Positions 79 through 61,312 of a stretch of 61,312 nucleotides of DNA are shown here, piece after piece (the first letter of the stretch is position 1; each line of letters starts with the position of its first letter). The stretch is from the NCBI RefSeq assembly GCF_004006295.1, contig NZ_CP026096.1:1-61312 (forward strand), written 5' to 3'. Made by a program: the position numbers and the translations under genes. The stretch comes from Peribacillus asahii. Lineage in GTDB: Bacteria > Bacillota > Bacilli > Bacillales > DSM-1321. The notes below the pieces were generated by a model. That model was given only the letters and a program-made list of their open reading frames with translations. It was not told where the DNA came from and did no database searches.

Positions 79-317
79 GATCCTGCACCTCCTTATATTA
101 GATAGTAGCCCCTGCGGGTAAAACAACTTTTAATAATTCAAGCGATAGCGAGGATTATTAAAATCAAGATCGAAAATGTAATTTTCGGGCTTCGCAATCA
201 CATAACCATAGTTATGTATAATTGCGCAATGTTACTTCGTACATTGATATTATACCACTTCCCAAATGTTGGTTTCAATGCTATAATGAAGAAAAATATC
301 CATAAGAGGTGGTTTAA
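79..317. other. Candidate origin of transfer (oriT) and divergent promoter region
   Basis: The 239 bases between the relaxase start (minus) and the accessory gene at 318 (plus) hold several short inverted repeats: CGAAAAT/ATTTTCG near 171-190, CATAAC/GTTATG near 203-218, the palindrome ATTGCGCAAT near 220-229, and AATGT/ACATT just after it. Position next to the relaxase and its accessory genes is where MOBQ/MOBL plasmids usually keep oriT. No nic-site consensus was recognised, so the nick position and strand are not assigned. The tail near 240-317 is AT-rich and ends in AAGAGGTGG before the ATG at 318. Confidence 0.45.
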
Positions 318-21507: not shown

Positions 21508-21768
21508 AAATAACAGCTCCTATACAATTTTAGCTTCTCCAAACCCTCTACATCTAAATAATACTGCTCAATTTTAGGCACAATTCATTCTCCTTTCCGT
21601 CACATAACGTCTCTGAACCCCATTTAAATAAATTAACATTTTTAATATACCACTTAGACACTTTGTTAATTAAACAAAAAGCTTCGGGGATCAGCCGAAG
21701 CGTAAGTAACATACAATACCCAAACACAAGAGTATTATGAGTTAATTATACCCGACTTTATTTTCTGT

Positions 21769-22627: not shown

Positions 22628-22786
22628 TTACTTTCGCTTCCGACGGCGTGGTTTTTTGCGATTTTGAGCTTTTTTGTTTTTAGACCGTAAATTCTTGATG
22701 TCAAGCCAAGTTTTTACGATAGAAAGAATCGAAGCGACTATTCCTAATGCCGTTAAAACGATTCTTAATTCGGTCTCGTATAACAC
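22628..22786 (-). CDS. Small hydrophobic peptide with very basic tail (type I toxin-like)
   Basis: 52 residues starting at GTG behind a near-perfect AAAGGAGGTG. A short acidic start, a single hydrophobic helix (LRIVLTALGIVASILSIVKT), then an extremely basic tail (NRKKPRRRKRK). This shape is that of small membrane toxins of type I toxin-antitoxin systems or of holin-like peptides. No antisense RNA could be located with confidence. Transcribed from the strong promoter at 22815-22843, which is shared in sequence with the promoter of the gene at 26554. A similar peptide is encoded at 38477. Confidence 0.65.
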   Translation of the reverse strand: MLYETELRIVLTALGIVASILSIVKTWLDIKNLRSKNKKAQNRKKPRRRKRK

Positions 22787-22814: not shown

Positions 22815-22843
22815 ATTATACCATCTAGACACTATAAGAACAA
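22815..22843 (-). promoter_or_regulatory. Promoter, conserved type with AGTGTCTAGATGG spacer
   Basis: On the minus strand TTGTTC, a 17-base spacer ending AGTGTCTAGATGG, and a perfect TATAAT. The same spacer word occurs in the promoters at 26785-26813 and about 26514-26535, and a variant near 21650. The identity extends beyond the sigma-A boxes, suggesting a shared operator. Confidence 0.75.
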
Positions 22844-22914: not shown

Positions 22915-23496
22915 GTGCCTAAAGGCAACCTTACGCCTTTAGGCGTTTTAGGCTCTTAAATCTTTATGTTTTGGATGTTCCCCCCCTTGTTTTGAGGTGT
23001 GAGGTAAAGGCTGGGGTGAATTGCGGTAGCAAGAGGGGCTAGCCCCTATATTGCGTAAAAAGATATGGCTAAAGATCAACACAAGAAACGGAAGAACAGG
23101 CGGTTTGGCAGGTACAATGGTTAGAGCAAGCCGAATTCCGAGAATCCTCGTTTTGAGTATGTTCGGCTTGGCGACATGCCTTCACCTGCCAAAATTCTTC
23201 ATGCAAGGGGTAAAGGGTGGAGATTTTTTGAGTGGGTTTCTCAAAAAATACTACCCGAACCTTGCATGAAGAATAGCCTTCTTGGGTGTTGGGGTTGTTT
23301 TTTAAGGTTTTCGGCTCGTTCGGTATGGCGGCGATAGCCGTAAATGGAACAGGAACCTACAGGATGTTAAGAAAGGTGCTTTTCCTTTCTTTACAGGCTG
23401 TGGTTATCGGGCCATTTAATGCCGAAGCGACACTTAAAGACTGTTAGAAAGAGCGATTTTTCTCTTTCTTACAGCCTTTTAGTGCTGCCGCCCAAA
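22915..23496. repeat. Large structured non-coding element, copy A
   Basis: About 580 bases made of consecutive long hairpins: GCCTAAAGG/CCTTTAGGC (22918-22945), TTTGGCAGGT/ACCTGCCAAA (23104-23113 with 23184-23193) enclosing CAAGCCGAA/TTCGGCTTG (23127-23135 with 23162-23170), a 15-bp stem 23194-23208 with 23260-23274 enclosing ATTTTTTGAG/CTCAAAAAAT, and a 193-base 3' module (23304-23496) closed by GGCGGC/GCCGCC. Copy B at 26885-27461 is homologous throughout; copy C at 30455-30644 keeps the 190-base module. No frame inside is conserved as protein. Candidate large RNA or a single-stranded-DNA element. Confidence 0.75.
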
Positions 23497-23632
23497 CTAT
23501 TCTTTGGTTTATTTCTCCCTTCAGAATTGTTATCACTTTCCCCCAAAACAATAAAATAGCCGAAAAGTTTATTCTATAGCATCCAATTCAAGATGCTTTT
23601 TTAATACCAAAAAACCCTATCGAATGACAGGG

Positions 23633-23842
23633 TCAAATAGATTTAGTCATACCGCAATGACGGCATTTACGCAAAAATATATAGTTCTTTACTGAACTTT
23701 CGAAGCGAGCATGGCCACAATTATCACAACGACCACTGATTATATCTGGATATTTTTGATATTCGTAAACAATACTTGTATCATATCCTTTAAACTCTTG
23801 TTTGTTTTCTTCAGACAAGTTAGACCACCTACCTTTATTCAA
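23633..23842 (-). CDS. Small zinc-ribbon protein
   Basis: 69 residues. Two CxxC pairs, GRCDNCGHARF and LRKCRHCGMTKSI, form a probable zinc ribbon after a helical N-terminus. Divergent from the metallopeptidase gene at 23949 across a 106-base gap. Function unknown; may bind nucleic acid or the neighbouring protein. Confidence 0.6.
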   Translation of the reverse strand: MNKGRWSNLSEENKQEFKGYDTSIVYEYQKYPDIISGRCDNCGHARFESSVKNYIFLRKCRHCGMTKSI

Positions 23843-23948
23843 CTAGATTATGATACCAGTAATAGCACTTTGATTAAAGGGTACATTTTTGCAGGTATTT
23901 ATCTTCTTTTGTCGAACTATCGAAAGAAAGACAAAGAGGGGGATGACA

Positions 23949-24914
23949 ATGGATTTGCATGTTCATTTACATGACCGATATATATTACGGGAAGAAGAAC
24001 AGATTATTGATGAACAAACAAAAACTCAGATTCATGAAGCACTTATTAGCTTTATAAGTCAACTAGTTGATATAGGGGAATTATTAATAGAGAACTTAAA
24101 ACATATATATGTAACGAACAATTATACGGAAGAATTAGAGGCTTTTCAAACAAAGCATGGTTTAAACGTTGGACATACGAAGAATGAGATAGGCGAGGGT
24201 TTTGCCATGACTTTGTCCTACATTAACGAGGATGCTGGGGAAGAACAAGCTATATTTCTTAGGGCAGAGGTTTTATTCGGGTTATTTAATGAGGAAGTTC
24301 AAGAGGGTAATAGGCTTTCGAAAAATTTACTTTATCATGAATTAGCGCATGTAAGTGATCATTTACATCAAAAGAGAATGTTTGATAAGAATGAATTTAG
24401 AGATTTAGATTTATTGCCGGCTATATTATATGACCTGTCTCTTCATATTTGGCAAGAATACTACGCTTATCGTAAGGCTGCAACTCTTTTTCCATCAAGC
24501 GATTTTCAACTAGATTCATTTGGGGAGACATTGGATTGGTTCTATGATAGATCAAAACAGTACATAAAGAATTGTAATGGTGATTATGATTATTTAATGA
24601 AGAATATGTATGGCGATGCCGGCTACTTATTTCGTACTGCAGCTTCTATTCATGGAAACTTACAAGGGTTTCAAATAGATGATCTACGGAAACAGGAGAT
24701 GCTAGGTAGTATAATTACTATTTTCGCAAATAACTATTGGGTAGATATCTTTGAAGAACTAGGTATAGAATTAATAAATCTATATAATACGTATCCTAGA
24801 TGGCAAGGATATGAACAATTAGAAAAGCTGAATCAGATTGTCATAAAAACATTTAATCGATTAGGGGTTTTCCCACAGGAAGCTGGAAGTCGGATATTCG
24901 TAGAACTAAAATGA
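23949..24914 (+). CDS. Putative zinc metallopeptidase-like protein (HExxH)
   Basis: 321 residues from the ATG at 23949, which has GAGGGGG six bases upstream. The motif LLYHELAHVSDHLHQ near residue 130 is a classical HExxH zinc site, and EYYAYRKAATLF about 45 residues later could supply the third ligand (glutamate) as in gluzincins. The rest is helical and hydrophilic, no signal peptide, so it acts in the cytoplasm. Family not recognised. On this plasmid such a protein in the region of antirestriction genes could be a host-interaction factor, which is inference. Confidence 0.6.
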   Translation: MDLHVHLHDRYILREEEQIIDEQTKTQIHEALISFISQLVDIGELLIENLKHIYVTNNYTEELEAFQTKHGLNVGHTKNEIGEGFAMTLSYINEDAGEEQAIFLRAEVLFGLFNEEVQEGNRLSKNLLYHELAHVSDHLHQKRMFDKNEFRDLDLLPAILYDLSLHIWQEYYAYRKAATLFPSSDFQLDSFGETLDWFYDRSKQYIKNCNGDYDYLMKNMYGDAGYLFRTAASIHGNLQGFQIDDLRKQEMLGSIITIFANNYWVDIFEELGIELINLYNTYPRWQGYEQLEKLNQIVIKTFNRLGVFPQEAGSRIFVELK

Positions 24915-25076
24915 GATTTTTGAAGAACGAGGATGAAGAATTATCAGCTGAGTGGAAAGTATATTTGTCTATTAATAAAGAGTGGTGGGCATCCATACAT
25001 TGGGTGTTTTTTCTTTTGTCTAAAAGAGTAGTTATATAATGCTTTGTTCTTCTTTGAATAATCTTTCAAGGTTTTA

Positions 25077-25114
25077 GGTTGCATCAGCAACCGTTAGCTG
25101 GCTCGATGCCAGCT
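25077..25114. repeat. Double hairpin with CTCGATG loop
   Basis: GGTTGC-ATCA-GCAACC is followed by AGCTGG-CTCGATG-CCAGCT (25096-25114). It belongs to the two-hairpin family found at 29428-29797 and 30334-30366, in which the stems differ but the seven-base loop is conserved. Confidence 0.6.
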
Positions 25115-25214
25115 TTCTAGTCAAGAAAAAACGGATGTTTTTTCTTCCATTCGCTGAATAAATACCGGATTGAGTTTTCATCTTGAAATACTCATCCGGT
25201 ACTTTCTTTTAAAA

Positions 25215-25304
25215 TTACTCTCTTGTTCTTGCTATATCATAGATAATCAACCCTAAAATACCTGCTCCTATCAATAAAGTCGTGCAAAATAAAATTTCAA
25301 ACAT
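25215..25304 (-). CDS. Small membrane peptide, 29 residues
   Basis: MFEILFCTTLLIGAGILGLI then IYDIARTRE: one hydrophobic helix and a short charged tail. The ATG has AAGGGGGAAA upstream and the gene lies directly downstream of the 61-residue gene, followed by an inverted repeat ACCGGAT/ATCCGGT (about 25168-25202). Size and layout fit a small membrane toxin or regulatory peptide; real translation is likely but unproven. Confidence 0.5.
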   Translation of the reverse strand: MFEILFCTTLLIGAGILGLIIYDIARTRE

Positions 25305-25320
25305 GTTATTTTTCCCCCTT

Positions 25321-25506
25321 TTATGCTTCGTCCCATTCTGGTGCTGGCGTTATTGTGATGGCAGGGTATTCATTTGGTAACGTCCAACCCTCATTTTTTA
25401 AATACAGCATTGTTTTATTATAAATTTCATTATTATCCGATGTATTAGAATCAATCATTACCGATAATTCAGTAGGTCCAAAGTCAATAATCACTCGATA
25501 AGTCAT
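25321..25506 (-). CDS. Hypothetical protein, 61 residues
   Basis: Acidic small protein starting MTYRVIIDFGPTELSVMIDS with an alternating beta-like N-terminus and a Pro-rich end (ITITPAPEWDEA). Good GGAGG ribosome binding site. Sits between the antirestriction gene and the small membrane peptide in a minus-strand series. Two hairpins, CGGCT/AGCCG near 25532-25548 and TCCGGCTGC/GCAGCCGGA at 25578-25603, separate it from ardC. Function unknown; small acidic proteins in such regions can be DNA mimics, but this one is only mildly acidic. Confidence 0.5.
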   Translation of the reverse strand: MTYRVIIDFGPTELSVMIDSNTSDNNEIYNKTMLYLKNEGWTLPNEYPAITITPAPEWDEA

Positions 25507-25643
25507 TTTTTCCTCCTTAGATAAATTGTAATCGGCTCTGATCCAGCCGATACAATTTTACTTTTATATCATTAAGGTTTTCTCCGGCTGCATTTGCAGC
25601 CGGACAACTATTGTGTTTGTGTTTTTATATGTTACTTGTATCT

Positions 25644-26492
25644 TTAATTTTTATATTTTTCTTCGTACTTTGTACCAAGAATGTAATCAGTTGCTTTTTG
25701 CGCTTGTGCTGCTGCTTTAACGATTAATGTTTTATCGTCTTTTAATTTTCGCAACCAAGACTGTATATAAGCAGCTGAGTTATCAAAAGTCACATCTACA
25801 AAACCAGATAAACCTGTTAACATGCTTGCTCCAACCTCTGCAACAAGTTCTTCTTGTGAATATTCTTCTGAACCGAAATGGGCTGTAGCTGAAGTGATTC
25901 CAGTTCTTTTCAATCTGCTGACATGACCTGTGCTATGTATAAGCTCGTGGAAAGTTGTTGCGTAATATTCTTCAACCTTTCTAAAATCCTTCATTGGTGG
26001 AATGTTTATATGGTCTATACTAGGTTGATAATATGCTCTGCCACTGTTATAACTAAAGCTCGGAGAATTTATATACCCTTTTATAATGTTTTCAGCTTCT
26101 TCTATTGGGTCATGTTCAAAAGTTTCTTCTTCTTGACGCTTGCTCTCAATACCTTCACATTGATTTATATTAAAAACCCGGTAGTATCTAAGTAGTGGGA
26201 TTTTTTCTTCTTTGCCTGTATCTTTATTTTCTGTTTCAATCCACTTCCAGAAAACCACGATTTCTGATTTTGCTCCAGGAAGAACTTTTGCCCCTTTTAT
26301 TTCCTGAACTTGCTTAAAAGTAATATACTCCCCTGGATCTAACAGCATTGTGTTAATACCTCTGTATGGTTTCTGAGTTTTCCAATTTACTGCTGTATTG
26401 CCATTCACCCAAGGCTTTTGCCAAGGTACTGTTCCCTGTTCTAGTTTCTCAATAATTTTGTTTGTTACGATTTCATAAACGCTATTTGTCAT
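25644..26492 (-). CDS. ardC: ArdC-family antirestriction protein / zincin-like metallopeptidase
   Basis: 282 residues. The N-terminal domain (about 1-120) opens VYEIVTNKIIEKLEQGTVPW with the following PW.. NWKT motif typical of the ArdC N-terminal single-strand-DNA-binding domain. The C-terminal metallopeptidase-like domain carries FHELIHSTGH (HExxH plus a third His) near residue 178 and EELVAEVGASML. ArdC proteins protect incoming conjugative DNA from restriction by binding single strands. Preceded by AGGAGGAG and by a promoter with the AGTGTCTAGATGG word. Its presence defines this zone as a probable early-expressed protective region. Confidence 0.9.
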   Translation of the reverse strand: MTNSVYEIVTNKIIEKLEQGTVPWQKPWVNGNTAVNWKTQKPYRGINTMLLDPGEYITFKQVQEIKGAKVLPGAKSEIVVFWKWIETENKDTGKEEKIPLLRYYRVFNINQCEGIESKRQEEETFEHDPIEEAENIIKGYINSPSFSYNSGRAYYQPSIDHINIPPMKDFRKVEEYYATTFHELIHSTGHVSRLKRTGITSATAHFGSEEYSQEELVAEVGASMLTGLSGFVDVTFDNSAAYIQSWLRKLKDDKTLIVKAAAQAQKATDYILGTKYEEKYKN

Positions 26493-26504
26493 TTGTTCTC
26501 CTCC

Positions 26505-26535
26505 TCTTTTTATACCATCTAGACACTAAGTTAAA
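26505..26535 (-). promoter_or_regulatory. Promoter of ardC with conserved AGTGTCTAGATGG word
   Basis: Minus strand: AGTGTCTAGATGG immediately followed by TATAAA, then AGGAGGAG and the ardC ATG. The -35 side is weaker than in the two sister promoters (22815 and 26785), which suggests the shared word is an operator rather than just promoter sequence. Confidence 0.6.
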
Positions 26536-26553
26536 GAGTTTTATTTTTTCTTT

Positions 26554-26760
26554 TTAACCTTCGAATGACGTCCAATAAATATTATAATCAGCCGAATCAC
26601 TATCACAAGCTTCTCTAATTTCTTCCTTACTCATGCCATTATGGAAACAAGAAATCAACAATCTTAATTTAGAATCATACCACTCTCCAACACTTTCAAT
26701 GATAAAAGCTGTATCTCCCTCTTCTAAAATTCGTTTGGTATCCTCTGTTATTACAAACAT
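26554..26760 (-). CDS. Hypothetical protein, 68 residues
   Basis: Start MFVITEDTKRILEEGDTAFI at 26760 is fixed by GGAAGGGGGGAG just upstream; a longer frame to 26802 would run through the promoter. Small, acidic, soluble protein with a Cys pair (ISCFHNG, REACDSD). First gene after copy B of the structured element, upstream of ardC and likely transcribed with it or just before it. Unknown function; an antirestriction or anti-SOS role would be in keeping with the neighbours but is only a guess. Confidence 0.6.
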   Translation of the reverse strand: MFVITEDTKRILEEGDTAFIIESVGEWYDSKLRLLISCFHNGMSKEEIREACDSDSADYNIYWTSFEG

Positions 26761-26784
26761 TTTCTCCCCCCTTCCCATATTTAT

Positions 26785-26813
26785 ATTATACCATCTAGAC
26801 ACTATAGGAACAA
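26785..26813 (-). promoter_or_regulatory. Promoter with conserved AGTGTCTAGATGG spacer
   Basis: TTGTTC, 17 bases, TATAAT on the minus strand, identical to the promoter at 22815-22843 in all but one or two positions. It lies about 75 bases downstream (in transcription sense) of structured element copy B. Confidence 0.75.
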
Positions 26814-26884
26814 GAATAAAATGCTATTAAGCACCATTTTTTTGCCCTCTTTTGTATATAAAAAGGAATACTTTAACTACCTTT

Positions 26885-27461
26885 TTACCTAAAGGCAACC
26901 TTACGCCTTCAGGCGTTTAGGCTTTTAAATCTTTATAGGTTTGATGTTCCCCTTGTTTTGAGGTGTGAGGTTGGCTGGGGTGTGGGGCTAGCCCCGCATA
27001 GCGTAAATCAGTAAGGCAAAAGAGCACAACTATAAACGGAAAATCTGGCGGTTTGGCAGGTATACTAGCTAGATCAAGCCGATTTACATAAATCCTCGTT
27101 TTGAGTATGTTCGGCTTGGCGAATATACTCTACCTGCCAAAATCAAAAACGCAAGGGGAAAAGTTTAAACTTTTCGAAAGAGTGGAGATTTTTTGAGTGG
27201 GTTTCTCAAAAAATACTACTCGTCCCTTGCGATTTTGATAGCTTTTTTGGGTGTTGGGGTTGTTTTTCAAGGTTTTCGGCTCGTTCGGTATGGCGGCCAT
27301 AGCCGTAAATGGAACAGGAACCTACAGGATGTTAAGAAAGGCGCTTTTCCTTTCTTTACATCCTGTGGTTATCGGGCCATTTAATGCCGAAGCGACACTT
27401 AAAGACTGTTAGAAAGAGTGTTTTTTCTCTTTCTTACAGCCTTTTAGTGCTGCCGCCCAAA
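26885..27461. repeat. Large structured non-coding element, copy B
   Basis: Homologous to copy A (22915-23496). The same order of stems is kept: GCCT..AGGC hairpin, GGCAGGTA/TACCTGCC enclosing CAAGCCGA/TCGGCTTG, the long stem 27142-27157 with 27224-27239, ATTTTTTGAG/CTCAAAAAAT, and the 193-base module 27269-27461. In the long stem both arms differ from copy A (B has AAACGCAAGGG, A has TTCATGCAAGG) yet pairing is preserved apart from one mismatch, which is compensatory change. An extra AAAAGTTTAAACTTTT palindrome is inserted at about 27160-27175. Confidence 0.75.
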
Positions 27462-27527
27462 TAAGAAGTTTTTTATTTAAATTGAAAAGGTTTGTCGATA
27501 TTTTTTATATTTTATTTTGTCCTCCCA

Positions 27528-28626: not shown

Positions 28627-29070
28627 TTATAATCTTCCAGCTTCTTTGAAGCTGTAGTATTTGGCTTTAGCATTTACGATAACATGATCTAGAACCTCAA
28701 TGCCTAATATCTTTCCACACTCAACAAGGCGCTTAGTTACCTCGTGATCCTCTCTTGATGGGTCAACAACTTGCGATGGATGCTGGTGACTTACGATAAT
28801 CGAAGCTGAATTATTCAGAATTGCGGCCTTGTAAACTTCCCTTGGTGTTACTAGGCTCGCATTTAGAGCTCCTACATGGCAACGATGCACCGCCACAACT
28901 TGATTTTTCGTATTCAGACACATCACGAAAAATACCTCTCTATCTTCGTCACCGATAAATTTCGCCGCAACTTCAGCTGCATCTTGCGGTGATCTAATTA
29001 TGTATTTTTCGCTTTCGTCTAACTCCTGAATTACCTGCTTGATTCTTACTACTTCATAGATTTTTTCCAT
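28627..29070 (-). CDS. radC: RadC-family JAB/MPN-domain protein
   Basis: 147 residues, the usual length of plasmid or phage RadC forms lacking the N-terminal helix-hairpin-helix. The JAMM-type metal site is intact: SHQHPSQVVDPSREDHEVT supplies His, His and Asp, with the upstream glutamate in AAKFIGDEDREVFFVMCLN. RadC-like proteins occur in leading regions and genomic islands beside antirestriction genes; their enzymatic role is unsettled. Ribosome binding site GAGAGGAGAG. It is the gene immediately downstream of the large folded non-coding region 29100-29880. Confidence 0.9.
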   Translation of the reverse strand: MEKIYEVVRIKQVIQELDESEKYIIRSPQDAAEVAAKFIGDEDREVFFVMCLNTKNQVVAVHRCHVGALNASLVTPREVYKAAILNNSASIIVSHQHPSQVVDPSREDHEVTKRLVECGKILGIEVLDHVIVNAKAKYYSFKEAGRL

Positions 29071-29099: not shown

Positions 29100-29880
29100 T
29101 CGTGAGTTCGAGCACACCGCCACAATACGCGCGGACAGAGGGAAGGGTACGCTAACGAAGAAGCGTACTCGCCAGTGAGGGGTAGTCGAAGCCCAGGCTT
29201 TTCGGGCTTTGACGTTAGAAATCGAGCAAAACCCAATGACTTAGCGAGAGTAAGCTTGCGTTTTTTGCAAGTTTACTCTCGCTTAGCCTACTTGGTTTTG
29301 CCGATTTCTTTCCCCGAACGCCCGCCCTTCCCTCTGTTGCAAGCGTATTGTTACAATTAGGCGAACGAAGGAAGGGAACACTACACCCAAAGTGCGGCTA
29401 AAAGCAGACCGAAGGTATGCAGCCGCCTAATCGTAAAGGGTTCAATGCCCTTTACGATTAGAACGGGACCAAACTATACCCTAATGCGAATCAAAACAGA
29501 CTAAAAGGATGTTTTGATTCGATAACAGCAAAGGGTTCGATGCCCTTTGCTGTTACTATAAAGCGAATTTCTTATTCCTTTTTAAAGGAATAAGAAAAGA
29601 AGCGTACTGTATCAAGACAAAGACTTGATACAGTCGATTTTTGGAGGGGTCGATCCCCTCCAAAAATCGCATTCTTTCTTTATGAAGCAATTGATAAGAT
29701 GCTGTCCAGTAGGCAGCATCGAAGATAATTGCTTATCACATCAAAGCGCAGCTATGATGTGATCGGCTTGTGAAGGCTCGATGCCTGAAGCAAGCCGTAC
29801 ACCCTCCTTTATGATTTTCTTCTCTCCTTTTTTAGTAAACGAAAATAAGGAGAAGGGAAGTTCCCTCCCTTCTCCTGGTT
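29100..29880. other. Extended structured non-coding region with two-hairpin units
   Basis: About 780 bases without a gene, GC-richer than the flanks, nearly all foldable. 29131-29340 is a nested structure: outer CAGAGGGAAGGG/CCCTTCCCTCTG, then AAATCG.GCAAAACC/GGTTTTGC.GATTT, then a 20-bp hairpin at 29240-29286. 29385-29800 holds at least four tandem two-hairpin units, each with a variable first hairpin and a second hairpin carrying a YTCRATG-type loop (29428-29462, 29523-29555, 29635-29669, 29764-29797). Stems are unrelated in sequence but perfectly paired. Confidence 0.7.
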
Positions 29881-29881
29881 C

Positions 29882-30070
29882 TTAGAAGCTTGCCTTGATT
29901 ACTTCTACTGCTAATGTTACTACCGTAGTGATGAAGCAGAATCCATAGATGATGATTCCTGCTGTTTTAAGTGCTTCACTTTTTACATTGTCGAGTGTCC
30001 AGAAGATTAAAAACGTTGCTGCTCCTAAGATAATAATTGCTGTGAATATTGAAATTGCTAGTGCTGTCAT
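29882..30070 (-). CDS. Small two-pass membrane protein downstream of a promoter-like hairpin
   Basis: 62 residues: two hydrophobic helices (about 3-26 and 37-58) joined by the short polar segment LDNVKSEALKTAG. Good AAAGGAG ribosome binding site. Upstream at 30098-30248 lies a nested hairpin that contains a TTGACA box in its stem. Function unknown; comparable in position to the small peptide gene at 38477. Confidence 0.6.
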   Translation of the reverse strand: MTALAISIFTAIIILGAATFLIFWTLDNVKSEALKTAGIIIYGFCFITTVVTLAVEVIKASF

Positions 30071-30097
30071 TTACGACAACTCCTTTCTTTGTTTGAC

Positions 30098-30248
30098 CTC
30101 TCCTAATCTTTGCGGAAAAGGGCTGTCAAGGGGCTTGAAGTTTGTGAAGTTTTTTAAGCGCTCTTCTTAAAAAAGTTCACAAAGTTTGCGAAGCGATAGC
30201 GTAGCATCCCTTGACTGACCTTATGGAGCAAATGATTATACTTAGGAG
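30098..30248 (-). promoter_or_regulatory. Nested hairpin with embedded -35 box (single-strand-promoter-like)
   Basis: Outer stem CTCCTAA/TTAGGAG (30100-30106 with 30242-30248) continuing as TCTTTGC/GCAAATGA, middle stem GTCAAGGG/CCCTTGAC (30125-30132 with 30208-30215), and an inner 18-bp stem (30141-30158 with 30165-30182). On the minus strand the middle stem presents TTGACA, oriented toward the small membrane protein gene; the matching -10 is poor. The same GTCAAGGG/CCCTTGAC stem appears at 38638-38723. Confidence 0.5.
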
Positions 30249-30333
30249 AACAAAGAAGGATTGCATATAGTCCGAGCGATAAAAAGCGAATCGTCAGGCT
30301 TGCCGGACGGACGCACCAGTTCATAGAACTGGT

Positions 30334-30644
30334 CGGATTTTTGGGACTCGATGTCCCCAAAATCCGCATTCATTACTTTAATAGTGGGAGCTATGCGAAG
30401 CAAGCGACACGATTCCTGTCTATAGACAGGAATCTTCCATTGGTTTTGATCTTTAAGGTTTTCGGCTCGTTCGATATGGCGGCTTGCCGTAAATGGAACA
30501 GGAACCTACAGACTGTTAAGAAAGGCGCTTTTCCTTTCTTTACAGGCTGTGGTTATCGGGCCATTTAATGTCGAAGCGACACTAAAAGACTGTTAGAAAG
30601 AGCGATTTTCTCTTTCTTACAGCCTTTTAGTGCTGCCGCCCAAA
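30334..30644. repeat. Structured non-coding element, copy C, with CTCGATG hairpin
   Basis: 30313-30366 is a two-hairpin unit (ACCAGTTC/GAACTGGT, then a stem CGGATTTT.GGGA closed by CTCGATG at 30347-30353). 30455-30644 is a 190-base module nearly identical to the 3' parts of copies A (23304-23496) and B (27269-27461), including the hairpins AAGAAAGG/CCTTTCTT and AGAAAGAG/CTCTTTCT and the closing GCTGCCGCC. Confidence 0.75.
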
Positions 30645-30664
30645 GTTTAGTTCTATTGAATTTA

Positions 30665-44415: not shown

Positions 44416-45118
44416 ATGGCAAAAGTAACTCCTAATAAAGACCAACAAAAGGCAATCGATACGATAGATGGACCAGTATTGATTTCGGCCGGACCCGGCA
44501 CAGGGAAGACGGCCACGCTAGTTAATCGATATGCCAATATGGTGAATAATCATCGCATCAAACCTGAGAATATCCTGATGGCGACTTTTACGGAAAAAGC
44601 AGCAAAGGAAATCATCACGCGTATTTCTTCTGTAATTCCAGATTTTGATTTGAATGATGTTTATATTGGAACCTTCCATTCAATCTGTCTAAGAATTGTA
44701 AAGGATAACTTAGCATTTATCCCGACTTTGAAGAAAAACTTCACTTTGATGGATGATTTTGACCAGAAATACTTCATCTACCAGCGGTATTATTATGATT
44801 TTAGACCTTTGCCACACTTTAATGATTTAATCAGTGAAACCTCAGGTGTATGGAGAAATGTCAGTAAAATAGCAGATCTAGTTAACGGGCTATCGGAAGA
44901 AAAAATAAATGCGGAGCGATTACTTACGGATCCAAATCCACAAATAGTTGCTTTGGGTGAAATCAAACAAAAATACGATGAACTATTGCAAGTAAAAAAT
45001 AGATTGGATTTTGCGACGATTCAGCTGACCGCTTATCAGTTGCTCAGTGAAAATCCGGAAATTCTAGAAAAATATCAAGAACTATTTCAGTATATGATGA
45101 TTGACGAGTATCAAGATA
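44416..45118 (+). CDS. UvrD-family helicase-nuclease, exon 1
   Basis: First 234 codons of a superfamily 1 helicase: Walker A SAGPGTGKTATL near residue 24, motif Ia ATFTEKAAKEI, YIGTFHSICLRI, and the Walker B region up to MIDEYQD. The coding sequence is interrupted after the first base of the next codon by a group II intron. Splicing to 46013 restores DEYQDTNSIQEQL, the family consensus. Ribosome binding site GGAGGAGATG. Unspliced message would end at a stop in the intron after DEYQDSATRC. First gene of a three-gene operon with type III Mod and Res. Confidence 0.9.
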
Positions 45119-46012
45119 GTGCGACACGTTGCTAATTGAAAAGATTAGCCACTAGCAATTGCTAGGAGAACTAAGAATCTGAAGAGTCGAATGATGGGGT
45201 AACGCCCTGAAAGGCTCGCCTAATCCTCCGAATAGCGTTCAATGGTGCAAAACATTGAGGGTTATAAGCTCGGTGAAGTCGGTTGAAGGTCATCCTAACG
45301 AGGGTGTCGAGGAAAGCTCTCTGGAGGCAGAGGGTATGGCTGATAGACCGGGGTTCTACAAGATAGTCTAGGGTGAGAAATTAGATGTCACAACCATCTA
45401 TTGACGAAATTCCGAATGTACGGCTCTAGAGGTATAGCTATTCGAAATGGATAGTCCCGCGTGTCGGGGTTAGTGAGGTAGAGTAAAATTTGTCTTTATG
45501 AAATACCTTATGGTGTTACAGGCACCATCCAGCTAACAGGGCTAGAGGAATCACCTACGGACTATGTATGTATAGATAGGATTCTTGGAACGTGGTAAGC
45601 CGGTAACGTGGAGGGTTTGCACCCATTGAAGCGGTGGAAGGGAAAGCATATGCATCGAAAGGGTATATGTATAACCTCCTTTATATCGGTGAAGGTAATG
45701 GCACAGTACCAGTGAAACTGTGATAACAAGCAGTGGAGGGATAGCCATTAGTCAACTGTTAGAAGACGACATTATTAACACAGAAATTCAGGTTCGAGTA
45801 TGACTAAGAGAAATGAAAGCTGAAATTACAAACCCAATTTGGGGATGTAAAGAGGTGAGTAATTGACTGAAACCCATGCAAAGTGGGAAACTGTGTAATT
45901 GATAATGTAACGAGCTAGCAGTTGATGGGGCGCCGTATGAGGTGAAAGTCTCACGTACGGTGCTAAGCGGGGGAAAAGACGGAGATGACTTCAAACTCTT
46001 ACCTATCGCAAC
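45119..46012 (+). mobile_element. ORF-less group II intron interrupting the helicase gene
   Basis: 894 bases. The 5' end GTGCGAC and 3' end CTTACCTATCGCAAC are group II boundaries. Domain V is at 45930-45963 (GCCGTATGAGGTGAAAGTCT with the closing CACGTACGG), domain VI follows with AAGACGGAGATGACTTC. EBS1 TGTCTT (45491-45496) pairs with IBS1 AAGATA at the end of exon 1 (45113-45118). Removal leaves the reading frame intact (703 + 2168 coding bases). No reverse transcriptase/maturase frame is present, so splicing would need a maturase supplied elsewhere or self-splicing. The insertion is at the codon after DEYQD. Confidence 0.92.
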
Positions 46013-48180
46013 CCAATTCGATTCAGGAACAATTGATCTTCTTACTATCAAAAACTAATAATATATGTGTGGTTGGTGACGATGACCAGTCAATGTATCG
46101 ATTCCGTGGTGCTACGATTCGAAATATACTGGAGTTTGAAAATAAATTTAAGAGAGGTGAGTGCAGCGTTATCCACCTTTCCATTAACTATCGTTCGGCT
46201 CCTGAGATAATTGAGTTCTACAATAGGTGGATGAAAGAGTACTCAGAAACTCACTTTCAGTGGGATCAGTTTCGAATTGATAAAACAATTTTACCTAGTT
46301 CTGGGGAAAGTCGTAAAGAGTTGACACCTCGGGTAATGAAAATAGCCGGAGAGTCGACTGAACAATGGCATGAAAGAATTTTTAGATTCATAAAGATGCT
46401 GTCAGATGACGGATACATAAGTAATTACAACCAGGTTGCCTTCTTATTCCGTTCTGTGGCGAAGAAAGAAACTCAGGAACTAGCGAATTATCTTGAAAGC
46501 AAAGGAATTCCAGTTTATTCCCCAAGGTCAAAAATGTTCTTCGAACGTGAAGAGATAATGGCAGCTATTGGTGTATTACTTGCAATTTTCGGTGACTATT
46601 CGGATGAGCTAGTTGATAGACCTGAGGAATACCTTGAAATGCTAACTGATTATTATGATCGCTGCTTGGATATTGCGGAGCAACTAATGGATGACGATGA
46701 AGATTTAGAAGATTGGGTTAGCTATCGAGAAGATGAGTTGGACAACCTTGTTGGAAATACGGATTACGCATTCACACAATTGTTGTATCAAATGTTCAGC
46801 TTCGACTACTTCCGAAAGATTATCGATACTGATTTATCATCCGGAGTAGCTGACCAAAGGGCAATCCGAAATCTCGCTATTTTAACAAACGTACTTGCCA
46901 AGTATGAAGCAAATGAAAATGTTGACGTCATCTCTGATGTTAAGAAGGATCAGATTGTTTCTAAGCTATTTGAAACGTATTTTAGATTCCTCTTTGGAAG
47001 CAATCATGGCGGTGGTGGCATCGAAGAATATCAAGACGAATCTGAATATGCTCCGAGTGGTTGCGTTTCATTTATGACGGTTCATCAATCGAAGGGCATG
47101 GAGTTCCCAATCGTTATTACTGATTCCTTATACGACAGGCCCACTGATGATAATCAAGGAGTACTTGAACAGGTATATGATGCCTATTCGCACCGGAAAC
47201 CGTTTGAACCAACTGATAGGATTAAGTTTTTTGACTTCTGGAGGCGTTATTATGTTGCGTACTCACGGGCTGAGGAATTACTTATTCTAACTACACCAAT
47301 TCGCACACGTGGTGCTTGGCCGATGCCGGGGAAAATGTTTAAGGAAGCTTTCAACGACCTAGAAGACTATTATGACCATCACTATTCATTTGAAGAGTTT
47401 GATTTTAAACCAGTTAAGGCATCAGATTTGAAGCAATCATATGCTTTCACATCTGATATTTCTAAATATGAAAGATGCTCAGTTGAGTATAAGATGTTCC
47501 GTGAACTAGGATTCTCTGAAATCCGTGTCGGTTCTACACTTTTTGGCTCCCTAGTTCATCAAACAATAGAAGATATTCATGATGCAATCCTCCGAGATGA
47601 AGTATCATCTATTCCAGATAATCTTGAAACGTGGTTTGATAACAATTACCAGGGGCTTGTTCTCAGCGAACATAGTTATCTGGCACCAAAATCAAGAAAT
47701 GCCGCACTTAAGCATGTCAAAAACTATTTTGAGAATTCTGAAGACCTTTGGAAAAACATCAGGAAAGCTGAAGTTCAGCTTAGCTATCCTATGGAAGATT
47801 TTATCTTGAATGGTCAAGTTGATATGATCAAAGGAAAAGGCGATACTGTAGAAATTGTGGACTTTAAAACAGGGGATAGGCCGGAACCTGGTGATGAATC
47901 TCTCATTAATTATGAAAAACAACTTCAGGTTTATGCAAGGCTAGTTGAGGTTAAGGAAAATGTCACTGTTTCAAAATTAAAGCTCTACTATCCAAGTGAC
48001 CAAGAAAATCCAATTATTGAATTTGAAAAAAACAGCCAACAAATTGATAGTATAATTGAAGAATTCACGGATGTAGTTCATAAGATTGAAAAGAAAGAAT
48101 TTAATCAACGAACGACAAATTATTCTGTTTGTCGCGAGTGTGATATGCGATTCTATTGCAACAGAATCAAACCAAAATAA
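46013..48180 (+). CDS. UvrD-family helicase-nuclease, exon 2
   Basis: Remaining 722 codons; the spliced protein would be 956 residues. Helicase motifs III-VI: CVVGDDDQSMYRFRGA, LSINYRSAPEI, VSFMTVHQSKGMEFPIVIT, YYVAYSRAEELLILT. The C-terminal domain is a PD-(D/E)xK nuclease (GQVDMIKGKGDTVEIVDFKT) with cysteines (YERCSVEY and VCRECDMRFYC) that fit a RecB/Cas4-type iron-sulphur site. This makes it an AddA-like unwinding and cutting enzyme. Stop is 19 bases before the mod gene. Exon 2 alone has no proper start, so function depends on splicing. Confidence 0.9.
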
Positions 48181-48198: not shown

Positions 48199-50181
48199 GT
48201 GAATAAAGAATTACAAAAATTACTGCTTTCAAAAGAAGAATACGTAGTAGAGGCAACACTTAACAAAAACTTGGTGGGGCAGCTTGCACGAAATTACGAC
48301 ACTGGGCTTTTGAATATCCTTCAATCAAACGAAAAGATTAAAGCTCACTTTTTCTCTTCAACTGATGGGGGACTTATTTTTAAGCTTGACGTTTTTCTTC
48401 AGTTCTTGAATAACAAGGCATTTTTGCCTGACAGTTATACAATTTATAAACAAAAAATTGGACTAGCATATAAGGGTGAGGTAGATTTACTTTCACAAAA
48501 TAAAGAAATTGTCCTTAACTGGCCCTACAAGGATTGTATTCTTGAAGGTGGGCAACACAAGGAAGATGCGAAGCGAGATGAATTATTTTTCAATGAAGTT
48601 TTGTCACCAACAGAGGTGACCAGGTTGATGGAACCAAAAGCTTTTTCAAATTTTGTTCTACATGATTCGACAGGTGTTTCAAAATTAGAAAACATTTCAG
48701 GTGAGGAAAACTTAATAATAAAAGGCAACAACCTTTTAGCTCTGTCCAGTCTAAAAGAAAAATTCGCGGGAAAAATTAAATTGATTTATATCGATCCACC
48801 GTATTATTTCAACGCCAATAAGTCTGAGGATACTTTTCGATACAATTCAAATTTCAAATTATCAACTTGGTTGGTTTTTATGAAAAATCGTCTAGAACTC
48901 GCAAAGGAGTTATTAGCAGAGGATGGTGCAATTTTTGCTCAAATCAGTGATGACGGTGTTGCCGAACTACACTTGTTGATGAAGGAGATTTTTAACACTC
49001 CAACAACCAACAACTTTATTAATAAGATTACAGTAAAAACAAAATCACCTTCAGGTTTTCAGAGTGTGAATCCTGGAGTCTTTGAAACTGCAGAATATAT
49101 TATTGGCTTTGCAAAAAATAAATCCAAGTGGACGTATAATCGCCAATATGTTGAAGCCGACTACGATGCAAACTACAAATGGGTTGTAACGAATATTGAC
49201 GATGATTTTAAGAATTGGAACATCGTTGATATTAAAGAAGTAATAGCTAATGACTTAGGTTTGACGTTAGAAGATTTCAAGAAAAAATACGATGACAAGT
49301 TAATTTTGGGATTGATGGCGGAATATGCTTTAAAGAATTCAGATAAAGTATTTCAATCAGTCGCAATTAGTAATAAAGCAGGAGCACAAATAAAAAAAGT
49401 AAGGGATGAATCTAAATTAAGCCCCCACGAAATCTTTTTAGTGAGAAGAGAAGGCCAATATGATGTGTATGTAAATAAAGGCCGAGAAATGGCGTTTTAT
49501 CAGAAAAAAATTAGAGATATAAATGGTGAAATGGTACCTAGTGTCCAAGCAACAAACATGTGGACTGACACACCATATGAAGGGATTGCATCTGAAGGAG
49601 GAGTAGTTCTAAAAGGTGGAAAAAAACCTGAGAAACTTCTTAAGCGGATTATTGAGATGGGTACTGACTCTGAGAACGATATAGTCATGGATTTCTTTTT
49701 AGGAAGTGGTACAACGTGTGCGGTTGCCCATAAACTTGGTCGAAGATACATTGGTATTGAGCAATTAGACTATATTGATGAACTTGCCATCCCTCGACTG
49801 GAATCAGTTATAAACGGAGACCAAAGTGGTATTTCTAAAATACAAGGATGGACTGGAGGTGGTTCATTTGTGTACTGTGAAATTAAGAATGATGCAAAAG
49901 AATTTGTCAATAGAATTGAGGAAGCAAGTGATGATGGCGAGCTACTTGAGCTATTCGAATTAGCGAAGAAATCATCTTTTATTTCATATCGAATTGATCC
50001 TAACAAAATGAAGTCTTCGGAATTTGAAAAACTTTCATTTGCAGAACAAAAGCAATTACTTCGCGAAATCATCGATAATAACAACTTGTATGTGAATTAT
50101 TCTGATATTGAGGATCAGTCGTACGGGATTAGTGCCGAAGACAAAGTGTTAAACCGTCAATTCTACGGGGGTGGTGAGTAG
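48199..50181 (+). CDS. mod: Type III restriction-modification system methyltransferase (Mod)
   Basis: 660 residues. Motif IV DPPY (YIDPPYYFNANKSEDTFRY) is near residue 199 and the SAM-binding motif FFLGSGTTCAVAHKLG near residue 497, so the order is IV before I (beta class), as in type III Mod proteins. Between them lies a target-recognition region. The start follows CTAGGAGGAATT. It methylates one strand of an asymmetric site and directs the Res subunit. Only two bases separate it from res, consistent with a complex. Confidence 0.93.
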   Translation: MNKELQKLLLSKEEYVVEATLNKNLVGQLARNYDTGLLNILQSNEKIKAHFFSSTDGGLIFKLDVFLQFLNNKAFLPDSYTIYKQKIGLAYKGEVDLLSQNKEIVLNWPYKDCILEGGQHKEDAKRDELFFNEVLSPTEVTRLMEPKAFSNFVLHDSTGVSKLENISGEENLIIKGNNLLALSSLKEKFAGKIKLIYIDPPYYFNANKSEDTFRYNSNFKLSTWLVFMKNRLELAKELLAEDGAIFAQISDDGVAELHLLMKEIFNTPTTNNFINKITVKTKSPSGFQSVNPGVFETAEYIIGFAKNKSKWTYNRQYVEADYDANYKWVVTNIDDDFKNWNIVDIKEVIANDLGLTLEDFKKKYDDKLILGLMAEYALKNSDKVFQSVAISNKAGAQIKKVRDESKLSPHEIFLVRREGQYDVYVNKGREMAFYQKKIRDINGEMVPSVQATNMWTDTPYEGIASEGGVVLKGGKKPEKLLKRIIEMGTDSENDIVMDFFLGSGTTCAVAHKLGRRYIGIEQLDYIDELAIPRLESVINGDQSGISKIQGWTGGGSFVYCEIKNDAKEFVNRIEEASDDGELLELFELAKKSSFISYRIDPNKMKSSEFEKLSFAEQKQLLREIIDNNNLYVNYSDIEDQSYGISAEDKVLNRQFYGGGE

Positions 50182-50183
50182 AT

Positions 50184-59696: not shown

Positions 59697-59985
59697 TTTT
59701 CTAAAACATTCATAGACGTTTTAACATGTTTTAATCTTTCAGCTAATGCAGCACGTTGTCGCTCAATATCTTCTTTTGCTTTAGCGTACTCAACTGGATT
59801 AGAAGTTCGTATTTTATCAGCTTCATTTTCTTTGCGATCCAAACTTCTTTTCCAGTTCACCACAAACTGATTATCTTTCTTAAATTTATCGTATTGATCC
59901 ACTAAACTCATTTCTTTAAATGGCTTAGGATTATCAAGTTTATTTAGATAATCTTTTGCATCTTGTAAAGGAATAACGTTACACT
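59660..59985 (-). pseudogene. Relaxase middle part (second reading frame)
   Basis: Reads NVIPLQDAKDYLNKLDNPKP then FKEMSLVDQYDKFKKDNQFV and a coiled-coil segment to NVLEKAM before it stops in the wrong frame. It continues the relaxase after the first frame runs out near 59985, where a single base appears to be missing in GCTAGTGTAACG. Coiled-coil sequence is typical of the long C-terminal domains of MobA-type relaxases. Confidence 0.7.
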
Positions 59986-61312
59986 AGCTCTAAATTCTTG
60001 AACCAATTTATCAACTTCAACAATAGGAAAATCTTTAAGTTTTGGATTGTCATTATAAAGAATCTTAGCTTGATTAATAGTTACACCTTCTAGTACTTTA
60101 ACTGCTTCATTTACTTTCGCTTTATTCTCAATAAATTTCTCTTTTTCAGCTTTAAAACTAGCAAGATCTTTGTTGAAATTTTCCGTCCTTGCTTTTTCTT
60201 CATTTAAATAATTTGAAACAGAAAAACCTAATCGTTCTAATTGAATTTTAGCCCTATCTTTTGCGATTGTATTATCTGGTGAAACAGAGTACTCTTGATA
60301 TAATTTTTTTGATTGATTAATGACAGACATTTCATTTCTTAAATCATTCGCTTTGTTACTTAATGACCTTTCCCAATTTTCAAATTGGGTTTGGCATTTT
60401 AATGCAACAGATAAATTAACATCTTGCTTCATACGATTACGTACATACATGATAGATGTTTTTTCTTTCGGACTCATAGCCTTCCATAAACCACTCTTTT
60501 CTAGTGATCTACGAATGTCCATTTCCATCTCTTTTTTCTTTTGTTCTAATTCAATTATTTTAGTATTAGACTTAGCTAATTCTTGCTGATAAACACTCAA
60601 TTCTTTATTAGCCTTTTGAATATCAGCATTTAATTTTCCTTGTGTTGTGACAGGTTGATATTCCACGCCTTCTTTTAATGCTTTTTTCTGTGCTTCTTTT
60701 TCCATTCCAGCAGCCATATGTCCTAAATGAACAGTTCCTAATTGCTCTTTTCCTTGACGTTCATAAGAACGTAAATCAAAGCGTCTTTCTAAATTTAATC
60801 GTTCGTAAGTTTTATTAATTAATTCTTGATATTCATTTCTCCATAGTTGAACATTTTCTTTATTATCCCATGGATTATCTTTATAAATTTTCTTACCATT
60901 TTCGTTTAATTCACCAGTAAAGGGGCGTTTCTCTCCCCATGTACCATCTTCATTAAAAGGGCGCATAGTTAGCATGATATGAGCATGTGGATTATGGTCT
61001 TTATCTCGATGAATATTTACATCTGCAACCATACCTTTATCAACAAATTGAGATTGAACATAAAGCTCTACAAGCTCTCTTTGTTGTTCTCTATTTAAGT
61101 CATTTGGGATAGCAATTAATACTTCTCTTGATAATTGGGAAGTCCATCGTTTTTCAACTTTCTCAACTTCATTCCAAAGCTTTTCTCTTTCATTTACCCA
61201 TTCAGGTGCGTGAGAAGGTGCAAGGATAAATGACTCTGGTTGTACTTCATGTTTTTTGAATTGAAAGCTTCTTTGATTTCTTTCGTCATACAATTTTTCA
61301 TCACTGCGATAA
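59944..61312 (-). CDS. Conjugative relaxase, MobA/MobL family, main domain (open at window end)
   Basis: Continuation of the gene begun at 78..1. The window end reads YRSDEKLYDERNQRSFQFKK and then the catalytic domain, with the three-histidine signature HRDKDHNPHAHIMLTMRPF near residue 105, followed by a helical region (DLRSYERQGKEQLGTVHLGH) and coiled coils. It nicks oriT and covalently carries the DNA strand. No start codon is used here; any internal TTG or ATG start would remove part of the N-terminal fold. The frame ends at 59944 through an apparent indel. Upstream of virD4 in the same direction, as in mob-coupling operons. Confidence 0.9.
   Translation of the reverse strand, partial: YRSDEKLYDERNQRSFQFKKHEVQPESFILAPSHAPEWVNEREKLWNEVEKVEKRWTSQLSREVLIAIPNDLNREQQRELVELYVQSQFVDKGMVADVNIHRDKDHNPHAHIMLTMRPFNEDGTWGEKRPFTGELNENGKKIYKDNPWDNKENVQLWRNEYQELINKTYERLNLERRFDLRSYERQGKEQLGTVHLGHMAAGMEKEAQKKALKEGVEYQPVTTQGKLNADIQKANKELSVYQQELAKSNTKIIELEQKKKEMEMDIRRSLEKSGLWKAMSPKEKTSIMYVRNRMKQDVNLSVALKCQTQFENWERSLSNKANDLRNEMSVINQSKKLYQEYSVSPDNTIAKDRAKIQLERLGFSVSNYLNEEKARTENFNKDLASFKAEKEKFIENKAKVNEAVKVLEGVTINQAKILYNDNPKLKDFPIVEVDKLVQEFRASVTLFLYKMQKII

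Follow-up and report, generated by a model that had tools for sequence, protein, structure and literature searches.

The 61,312-base window analysed here is the entire second contig (NZ_CP026096.1) of the two-contig genome of Peribacillus asahii. It is a conjugative plasmid, since it carries genes for a MOBQ relaxase, a coupling protein and TraG-, TrbL- and lysozyme-like components of a type IV secretion system, and it also carries topoisomerase, ArdC and RadC genes. The plasmid is probably circular, and the relaxase reading continues over the contig ends, offset where these meet. On its plus strand, to the right of minus-strand genes for a small protein, ArdC and RadC, lie three copies (A, B and C) of a folded DNA element, which are the subject of this study (Table 1).

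Copies A and B are diverged repeats set ~3,970 bases apart. They are 96% identical over 23273-23496 / 27238-27461 and 77% and 93% identical over the middle blocks, and the common unit reaches leftward to 22774 / 26744 (79%). Folded as single-stranded DNA, A reaches -122.9 kcal/mol (z -10.8) and B -125.5 kcal/mol (z -12.7), with none of 100 shuffles equal in either case, so that the two ~580-base folded elements described in the original prediction are real. That prediction had treated them as a single feature in two copies. Database comparison instead separated each into two modules, making A and B composite, and revealed a third copy of module 2 (C) at ~30440-30649, with sequence similarity extending over 30440-30644. 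No significant match to module 1 was found beside C. The position that module 1 takes in A and B is there filled by an array of long hairpins, and this left flank folds with z -10.0. The array, a dense run of inverted repeats between radC and copy C, contains a segment (29224-29303) that by itself scores as a long hairpin. No phage record matched copy B and the exact module-2 pattern was absent from viral contigs; a phage origin of the elements was rejected on these grounds.

Module 1 was followed with a profile seeded from A, B and the rolling-circle plasmid pSK37064. Among the sequences given, this found 33 places, one of which is pUB110 1493-1326 on the minus strand, the rep strand (82.6 bits); we take this non-coding region to be the pUB110 ssoU, a single-strand origin (sso), a label that follows reviews and not the record. 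Across an alignment of 23 of these places (A2), 92.7% of cells are paired, as compared to 41-55% with partners slid by 1-3 columns. Two-sided change was seen at 31 of 62 pairs (shuffles 19.5 +/- 2.1), and the covariation score of 0.329 (shuffles 0.137) was matched by none of 500 shuffles. Relatedness alone may beat shuffles without any structure, a flaw of which the slid control is free. The long stem 23194-23208/23260-23274, for which compensatory change between A and B had been proposed, pairs as described: it corresponds to helix 7, in which both sides have changed in 10 of 15 pairs.

Matches to module 1 by itself occur in 472 plasmid records, many of them via a single stretch of 63 nucleotides (nt). 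In each of the three plasmids whose Rep is annotated, module 1 lies on the Rep strand, and in five of six small plasmids it is opposite the relaxase, the relaxase pieces of the sixth lying on both strands. The motif TAGCGT, presumably CS-6 of the ssoU class, is present in the 23-sequence consensus and in copy B, and reads TTGCGT in copy A. Judged by its shared sequence and fold, module 1 is a relative of the pUB110-type single-strand origin found in rolling-circle plasmids. The setting is different: the two copies here belong to a large conjugative plasmid, and each is joined to module 2 next to an establishment operon. According to the available text of two reports, ssoU depends on RNA polymerase and is recognised widely among Firmicutes, and an sso functions in one orientation only (PMC5703833, PMC6607859). 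Other single-strand origins are also found on transferable elements, such as sso1 of ICEBs1 and the ssoT type of pTA1060 and pTA1040, however module 1 has no match to pTA1060 or pTA1040 (blastn, E 0.01). The chromosome contig of this genome also carries a module-1-like piece (L004, G000:C1:2535195-2535312; 75% over 118 nt, profile 113 bits).

By itself, module 2 has matches in 15 records (E 0.01), most of them larger Bacillaceae plasmids. Starting from 104 nhmmer matches, 34 non-overlapping places of at least 60 bits (one a duplicate) were retained, of which the 26 full-length ones form alignment A1. In these copies 94.3% of cells are paired, falling to 29-40% with partners slid; 24 of 47 pairs show two-sided change (shuffles 12.3 +/- 2.0), and the covariation score is 0.267 against 0.143 in shuffles, with 0 of 500 as high. 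Covariation is strongly positive in both modules, which shows a conserved fold and not an RNA. A covariance model of module 2 (R1) has matches in 32 of 397 genomes of the order Bacillales, belonging to 19 of 135 genera.

R1 also links module 2 to EGeRS1, a repeat of the pLS20 plasmid family. Within 35.8 kb of pLS20, R1 matched exactly four places, all on the plus strand, with E-values (rough, by the tool's own statement) of 2.8e-9 to 9.1e-7, and the same four were found in the whole record. Their positions are those of the long repeats that precede ardC and three further operons, namely EGeRS1 copies B-E. In the available text of PMC8708921, EGeRS1 copy A is without the distal 180 bp, and this missing part is where module 2 lies in the pLS20 repeats. 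Neither blastn nor nhmmer revealed sequence identity between module 2 and the pLS20 EGeRS1, so identity at the sequence level was rejected, and R1 fails to find the more diverged EGeRS1 of pBS72.

Module 2 matches the gene-distal ~200 nt of EGeRS1 (PMC8708921), and the two share operon order, orientation, ardC downstream and several copies per plasmid. Like EGeRS1, the three module-2 copies of the window stand upstream of establishment operons, with minus-strand left genes that include ArdC and RadC. They differ in that the gene-proximal part is another structure and that the published transferred strand is opposite. In addition, A and B have a TATAAT promoter with an operator-like spacer between element and gene; because this sigma-A-type promoter stands there, we file A and B as EGeRS1-related and not as EGeRS1. 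In the available portions of the literature matches listed (single-strand origins and promoters, Gram-positive conjugation; subscription papers and preprints outside this scope), we found no description of a link between EGeRS1 and single-strand origins, nor of module 2 outside EGeRS1.

The wider context of module 2 was examined in a set of 75 copies, which omits copies below 70 bits, truncated or identical ones and loci repeating others. Strong folding (z < -4) of the 310 nt to the left of module 2 was seen in 45 of 71 copies, as compared to 4 of 71 for the right side, yet module 1 takes this left position in just two of 75 contexts, the window's A and B (none of four in pLS20). The copies thus share one plan: a conserved head, a variable hairpin partner, and then a gene. 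One contig of Bacillus sp. ISL-18 (L072) carries four module-2 copies within 8 kb on one strand, one of them partial by score.

Whether the fold is kept as DNA or as RNA was assessed from wobble pairs. At pairs predicted by RNAalifold on both strands, GT:AC is 118:94 in module 2 (the 64 sequences left after a 92% identity filter) and 50:16 in module 1 (23 sequences). RNase P from the same order, handled alike, gives 104:10 (29 of 30 loci, L233 near a contig end being omitted; 28 sequences after the filter). With conservation decreasing, the module-2 ratio by thirds is 1.18, 1.58 and 1.12, the best-conserved third standing at 26:22. When every pair of the plus fold is counted, module 2 has a ratio of 2.7 and RNase P one of 21.8. 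Module 1, of an accepted single-stranded-DNA type, has an intermediate ratio of 3.1. Because GT:AC is near-balanced in module 2, unlike RNase P, we read its fold as one kept in DNA, without the wobble preference of a real RNA.

We next consider strand. A nic-like core behind an inverted repeat, recognised by what we take to be the MOBQ nic motif, occurs once in the window, at 218 on the plus strand. The same motif occurs once in the 12 kb round the relaxase of pT1 (W07), on the strand of its module, and once in the 20 kb round the relaxase of contig G424:C1, on the strand of its ten modules, so that modules and nic-like site share a strand in all three replicons in which one was seen next to a MOBQ relaxase. 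In this plasmid, the modules would therefore lie on the nicked, transferred strand. Relaxase and module 2 are on opposite strands in 8 of 10 contigs holding both (the window, W01, W07, G294:C1, G094:C15, G424:C1, G426:C39 and G386:C2).

In 24 of 26 multi-copy contigs all copies point the same way, the exceptions being G429:C2 and G026:C1; local duplication makes such copies non-independent, and the count merges W08 with G385:C2, G122 with G427 and G029 with G425 and omits some fragments. Orientation agrees with GC skew in the window, W03, W05, W08, G332:C17, G386:C2 and, bar one copy near a sign change, G424:C1. Across G429:C2, 10 of 12 copies fit, and the other two lie between sampled windows of opposite sign. 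The pLS20 copies disagree with the rule, being on the slightly G-rich strand (+0.03). On G429:C2, a contig of 1.44 Mb, the 12 copies flip near 0.5 and 1.3 Mb together with the skew, like the two replichores of a large replicon.

The genes to the left of the copies, and other features of the window, are collected in Table 1. The sequence ATACCATCTAGACACTA is found exactly at 22818, 26512 and 26788 (expectation at up to 3 mismatches, 0.09 matches), and on the minus strand two of the three sites adjoin a TATAAT (22815-22820 and 26785-26790), which bears out the proposal of a promoter with the same unusual spacer beside each copy. A fourth, weaker operator-like repeat, with 3 mismatches, was observed at 21647-21663, and suggests that the regulon may be wider. 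The small open reading frame (ORF) left of A would encode what looks like a small, basic-tailed membrane protein, whilst that left of B probably starts further in than annotated here, since its GTG overlaps the promoter.

Table 1 Features of the window bearing on the folded elements
Feature	Position	Strand	Basis or remark
Inverted repeat, then MOBQ-type nic-like core	201..231	+	Places the transferred strand on plus
52-residue ORF, first ORF left of A	22628..22786	-	GTG start, Shine-Dalgarno-like GGAGG
-10 region and operator-like spacer, promoter left of A	22815..22834	-	
Short hairpin, left end of A (B too)	22917..22944	+	Repeat, sequence
Module 1 of A, single-strand-origin-like (pUB110/ssoU-type)	22982..23281	+	80% over 297 nt to pSK37064, 86% over 63 nt to pUB110; profile; covariation
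Module 2 of A, conserved ~190-nt folded head	23300..23501	+	R1 182.1 bits; covariation on 26 copies
ArdC-type antirestriction gene left of B	25644..26492	-	ArdcN + MPTase-PolyVal
Same operator-like repeat, directly ahead of ardC	26512..26528	-	
Small ORF left of B	26554..26802	-	GTG overlaps promoter
Same promoter/operator, left of B	26785..26804	-	
Module 1 of B	26948..27246	+	Profile 245.7 bits; 89% over 61 nt to pUB110
Module 2 of B	27265..27466	+	R1 179.4 bits
RadC-like gene left of C	28627..29070	-	PF04002
Array of long perfect or near-perfect hairpins left of C, at the module 1 site of A/B	29100..30440	+	Read from sequence
Module 2, third copy (C), without module 1	30451..30649	+	R1 176.2 bits; 93% to A
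MOBQ (MobA/MobL) relaxase gene	59944..61293, on past contig ends to ~78	-	PF03389, E 3.6e-63

The antisense arrangement of left gene and element is common beyond this plasmid. In 13 of 15 annotated copies (exceptions in W02 and W07), and in the window's three, the nearest non-overlapping left gene runs antisense to module 2; among the 15, six have a left gene of ArdC-like or RadC/JAB type. This count covers 15 of 20 copies in nine annotated records, omits second or later copies of W02, W03 and W08, and disregards four overlapping annotated coding sequences. Taking the larger left ORF, 53 of 71 copies are antisense and 18 of 71 have it on the element's own strand, some of these ORFs being doubtful, which weakens a strict rule that the element is the promoter of its left operon. 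Ten proteins flanking such own-strand loci were scanned; the eight on the left side included transposase, methyltransferase, ParA, LysR, solute-binding, DJ-1 and GntR types.

Elsewhere on the plasmid, a group II intron (RF02004, RF00029) at 45166-46012 stands between the halves (44416-45135 and 45985-48180) of a gene for a UvrD-type helicase/PD-(D/E)XK nuclease, with no large intron ORF listed between them. A type III restriction-modification pair (methylase and ResIII subunit) lies at 48199-52955.

This analysis establishes the folds and their covariation, the relationships of module 1 to pUB110 and of module 2 to EGeRS1, and the strand and position of the copies. Going beyond this, we infer priming, a binder of module 2, a repressor and an order of events. 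In the resulting model, the plus strand would enter the recipient 5' end first, from ~228, so that the sequence left of an element would already be inside when the element arrives. The entering strand would fold at A, B and C, and RNA polymerase, as the literature describes for ssoU origins, may lay a primer on the fold, which DNA polymerase would extend leftwards. The establishment operon to the left (small protein, ArdC, RadC) and its operator-bearing promoter would then become double-stranded first, and be expressed before the repressor is there. Leftward priming of this kind fits the position and strand of the elements and the relatedness to sso, and it would allow left genes to run either way. 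The strand that modules share with nic-like sites, the co-orientation of copies and the DNA-like pair changes also favour single-strand initiation during conjugation. A related principle is seen in ICEBs1, whose sso1 aids acquisition by transconjugants in the available text of PMC4595007. We consider it about an even chance that A, B and C work as DNA elements while the transferred strand is single-stranded, priming second-strand synthesis at an establishment operon. Lagging-strand initiation during conjugation, one of three options in the original prediction, is the best supported, given the relationship of module 1 to a known sso and the elements' place on the probable transferred strand.

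Several observations weigh against this priming model. In pLS20, relaxase and module 2 are on one strand, and the published transferred (nicked) strand is opposite to the one predicted. G429:C2 is mixed, with 8 plus and 4 minus copies and its relaxases on minus. If transfer runs away from the relaxase gene, as the count assumes, only 4 of the 8 agreeing replicons (the window, W07 = pT1, G426:C39 and G094:C15) have their copies on the leading side within ~60 kb, whilst those of G424:C1 and G294:C1 would enter late and those of W01 and G386:C2 would be far from oriT. Transferred strand, GC skew and gene direction are partly confounded, and wobble pairs leave the folded strand of module 2 unfixed, although the plus strand folds somewhat better. 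Lastly, EGeRS1-B is reported to block read-through, an alternative function (PMC8708921, available text). The leading-side recount, together with the 10 of 12 copies that follow skew in G429:C2, holds our confidence at an even chance for the window's elements and somewhat short of even for the broader class. By that broader reading, module 2 may be an unrecognised class of folded DNA on Bacillales conjugative plasmids and the core that EGeRS1-type sequences have in common; it would start second-strand synthesis or transcription at establishment operons on the transferred strand, and its interchangeable partner hairpins would include captured rolling-circle single-strand origins.

The single-strand promoters of the original prediction are a live, if rather unlikely, rival: as in Frpo of the F plasmid, RNA polymerase on the folded plus strand would transcribe the minus-strand establishment genes before any second-strand synthesis. 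The elements resemble the Frpo/ssi sites of F in being DNA folds, here on what is probably the transferred strand, next to antirestriction and allied genes; the antirestriction genes of leading regions are among those that Frpo-type promoters drive (PMC11541004, available text), the probable transferred strand would be the template of the left genes in this plasmid, and the nearest left gene is predominantly antisense. However, the own-strand minority of left ORFs and the separate sigma-A-like promoters between A/B and their genes do not suit such a promoter, by-eye inspection recognised no promoter hexamers in the fold, and R1 found nothing in 25 kb of F that include the leading region (45000-70000), a comparison covering the module-2 model only. 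In pLS20 the published nick does not make the transferred strand the template of the downstream genes, on which basis the EGeRS1 authors rejected this option (PMC8708921, available text). The third option of the original prediction, a large structured RNA made from the plus strand, fares worse still and is very improbable: covariation is strong and the folds are stable with RNA parameters too, but the wobble counts of module 2, even in its best-conserved third, lack the bias of RNase P, and no Rfam family, including ROOL and GOLLD, reached gathering score in the A/B region, which gave only weak matches to unrelated families. We rejected it on these two results; EGeRS1-B is moreover without promoter activity in either direction (PMC8708921, available text).

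Two further explanations dispense with transfer or with single-stranded DNA. The elements might be primosome-assembly or lagging-strand start sites for ordinary plasmid replication, as their place on the G-poor strand wherever sampled windows permit a call, and the switch of orientation with skew in G429:C2, would favour. We think this improbable, as the G-poor strand should be the leading-strand template, unexposed at the fork, the pLS20 copies break the skew rule, and siting beside ArdC and RadC genes is left unexplained. Of similarly low probability is a double-stranded insulator, a terminator-like block that would silence establishment genes in the donor. EGeRS1-B does stop read-through toward the gene, in its native orientation only, yet the blocking was mapped to the gene-proximal 215 bp and not to the module-2 part (PMC8708921, available text), and a simple terminator needs neither 47 covarying pairs nor conserved unpaired motifs in one strand sense.

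According to the available text of PMC8708921, both the switch-on in recipients of the establishment genes of Gram-positive conjugative plasmids with EGeRS1 and the mechanism of EGeRS1 are unexplained. Taken together, a covariance model that joins EGeRS1 to elements in 19 of the 135 sampled genera, the sso link and the strand rule offer a testable mechanism for both, and the R1 model doubles as a finder of establishment (anti-defence) operons in Bacillales.

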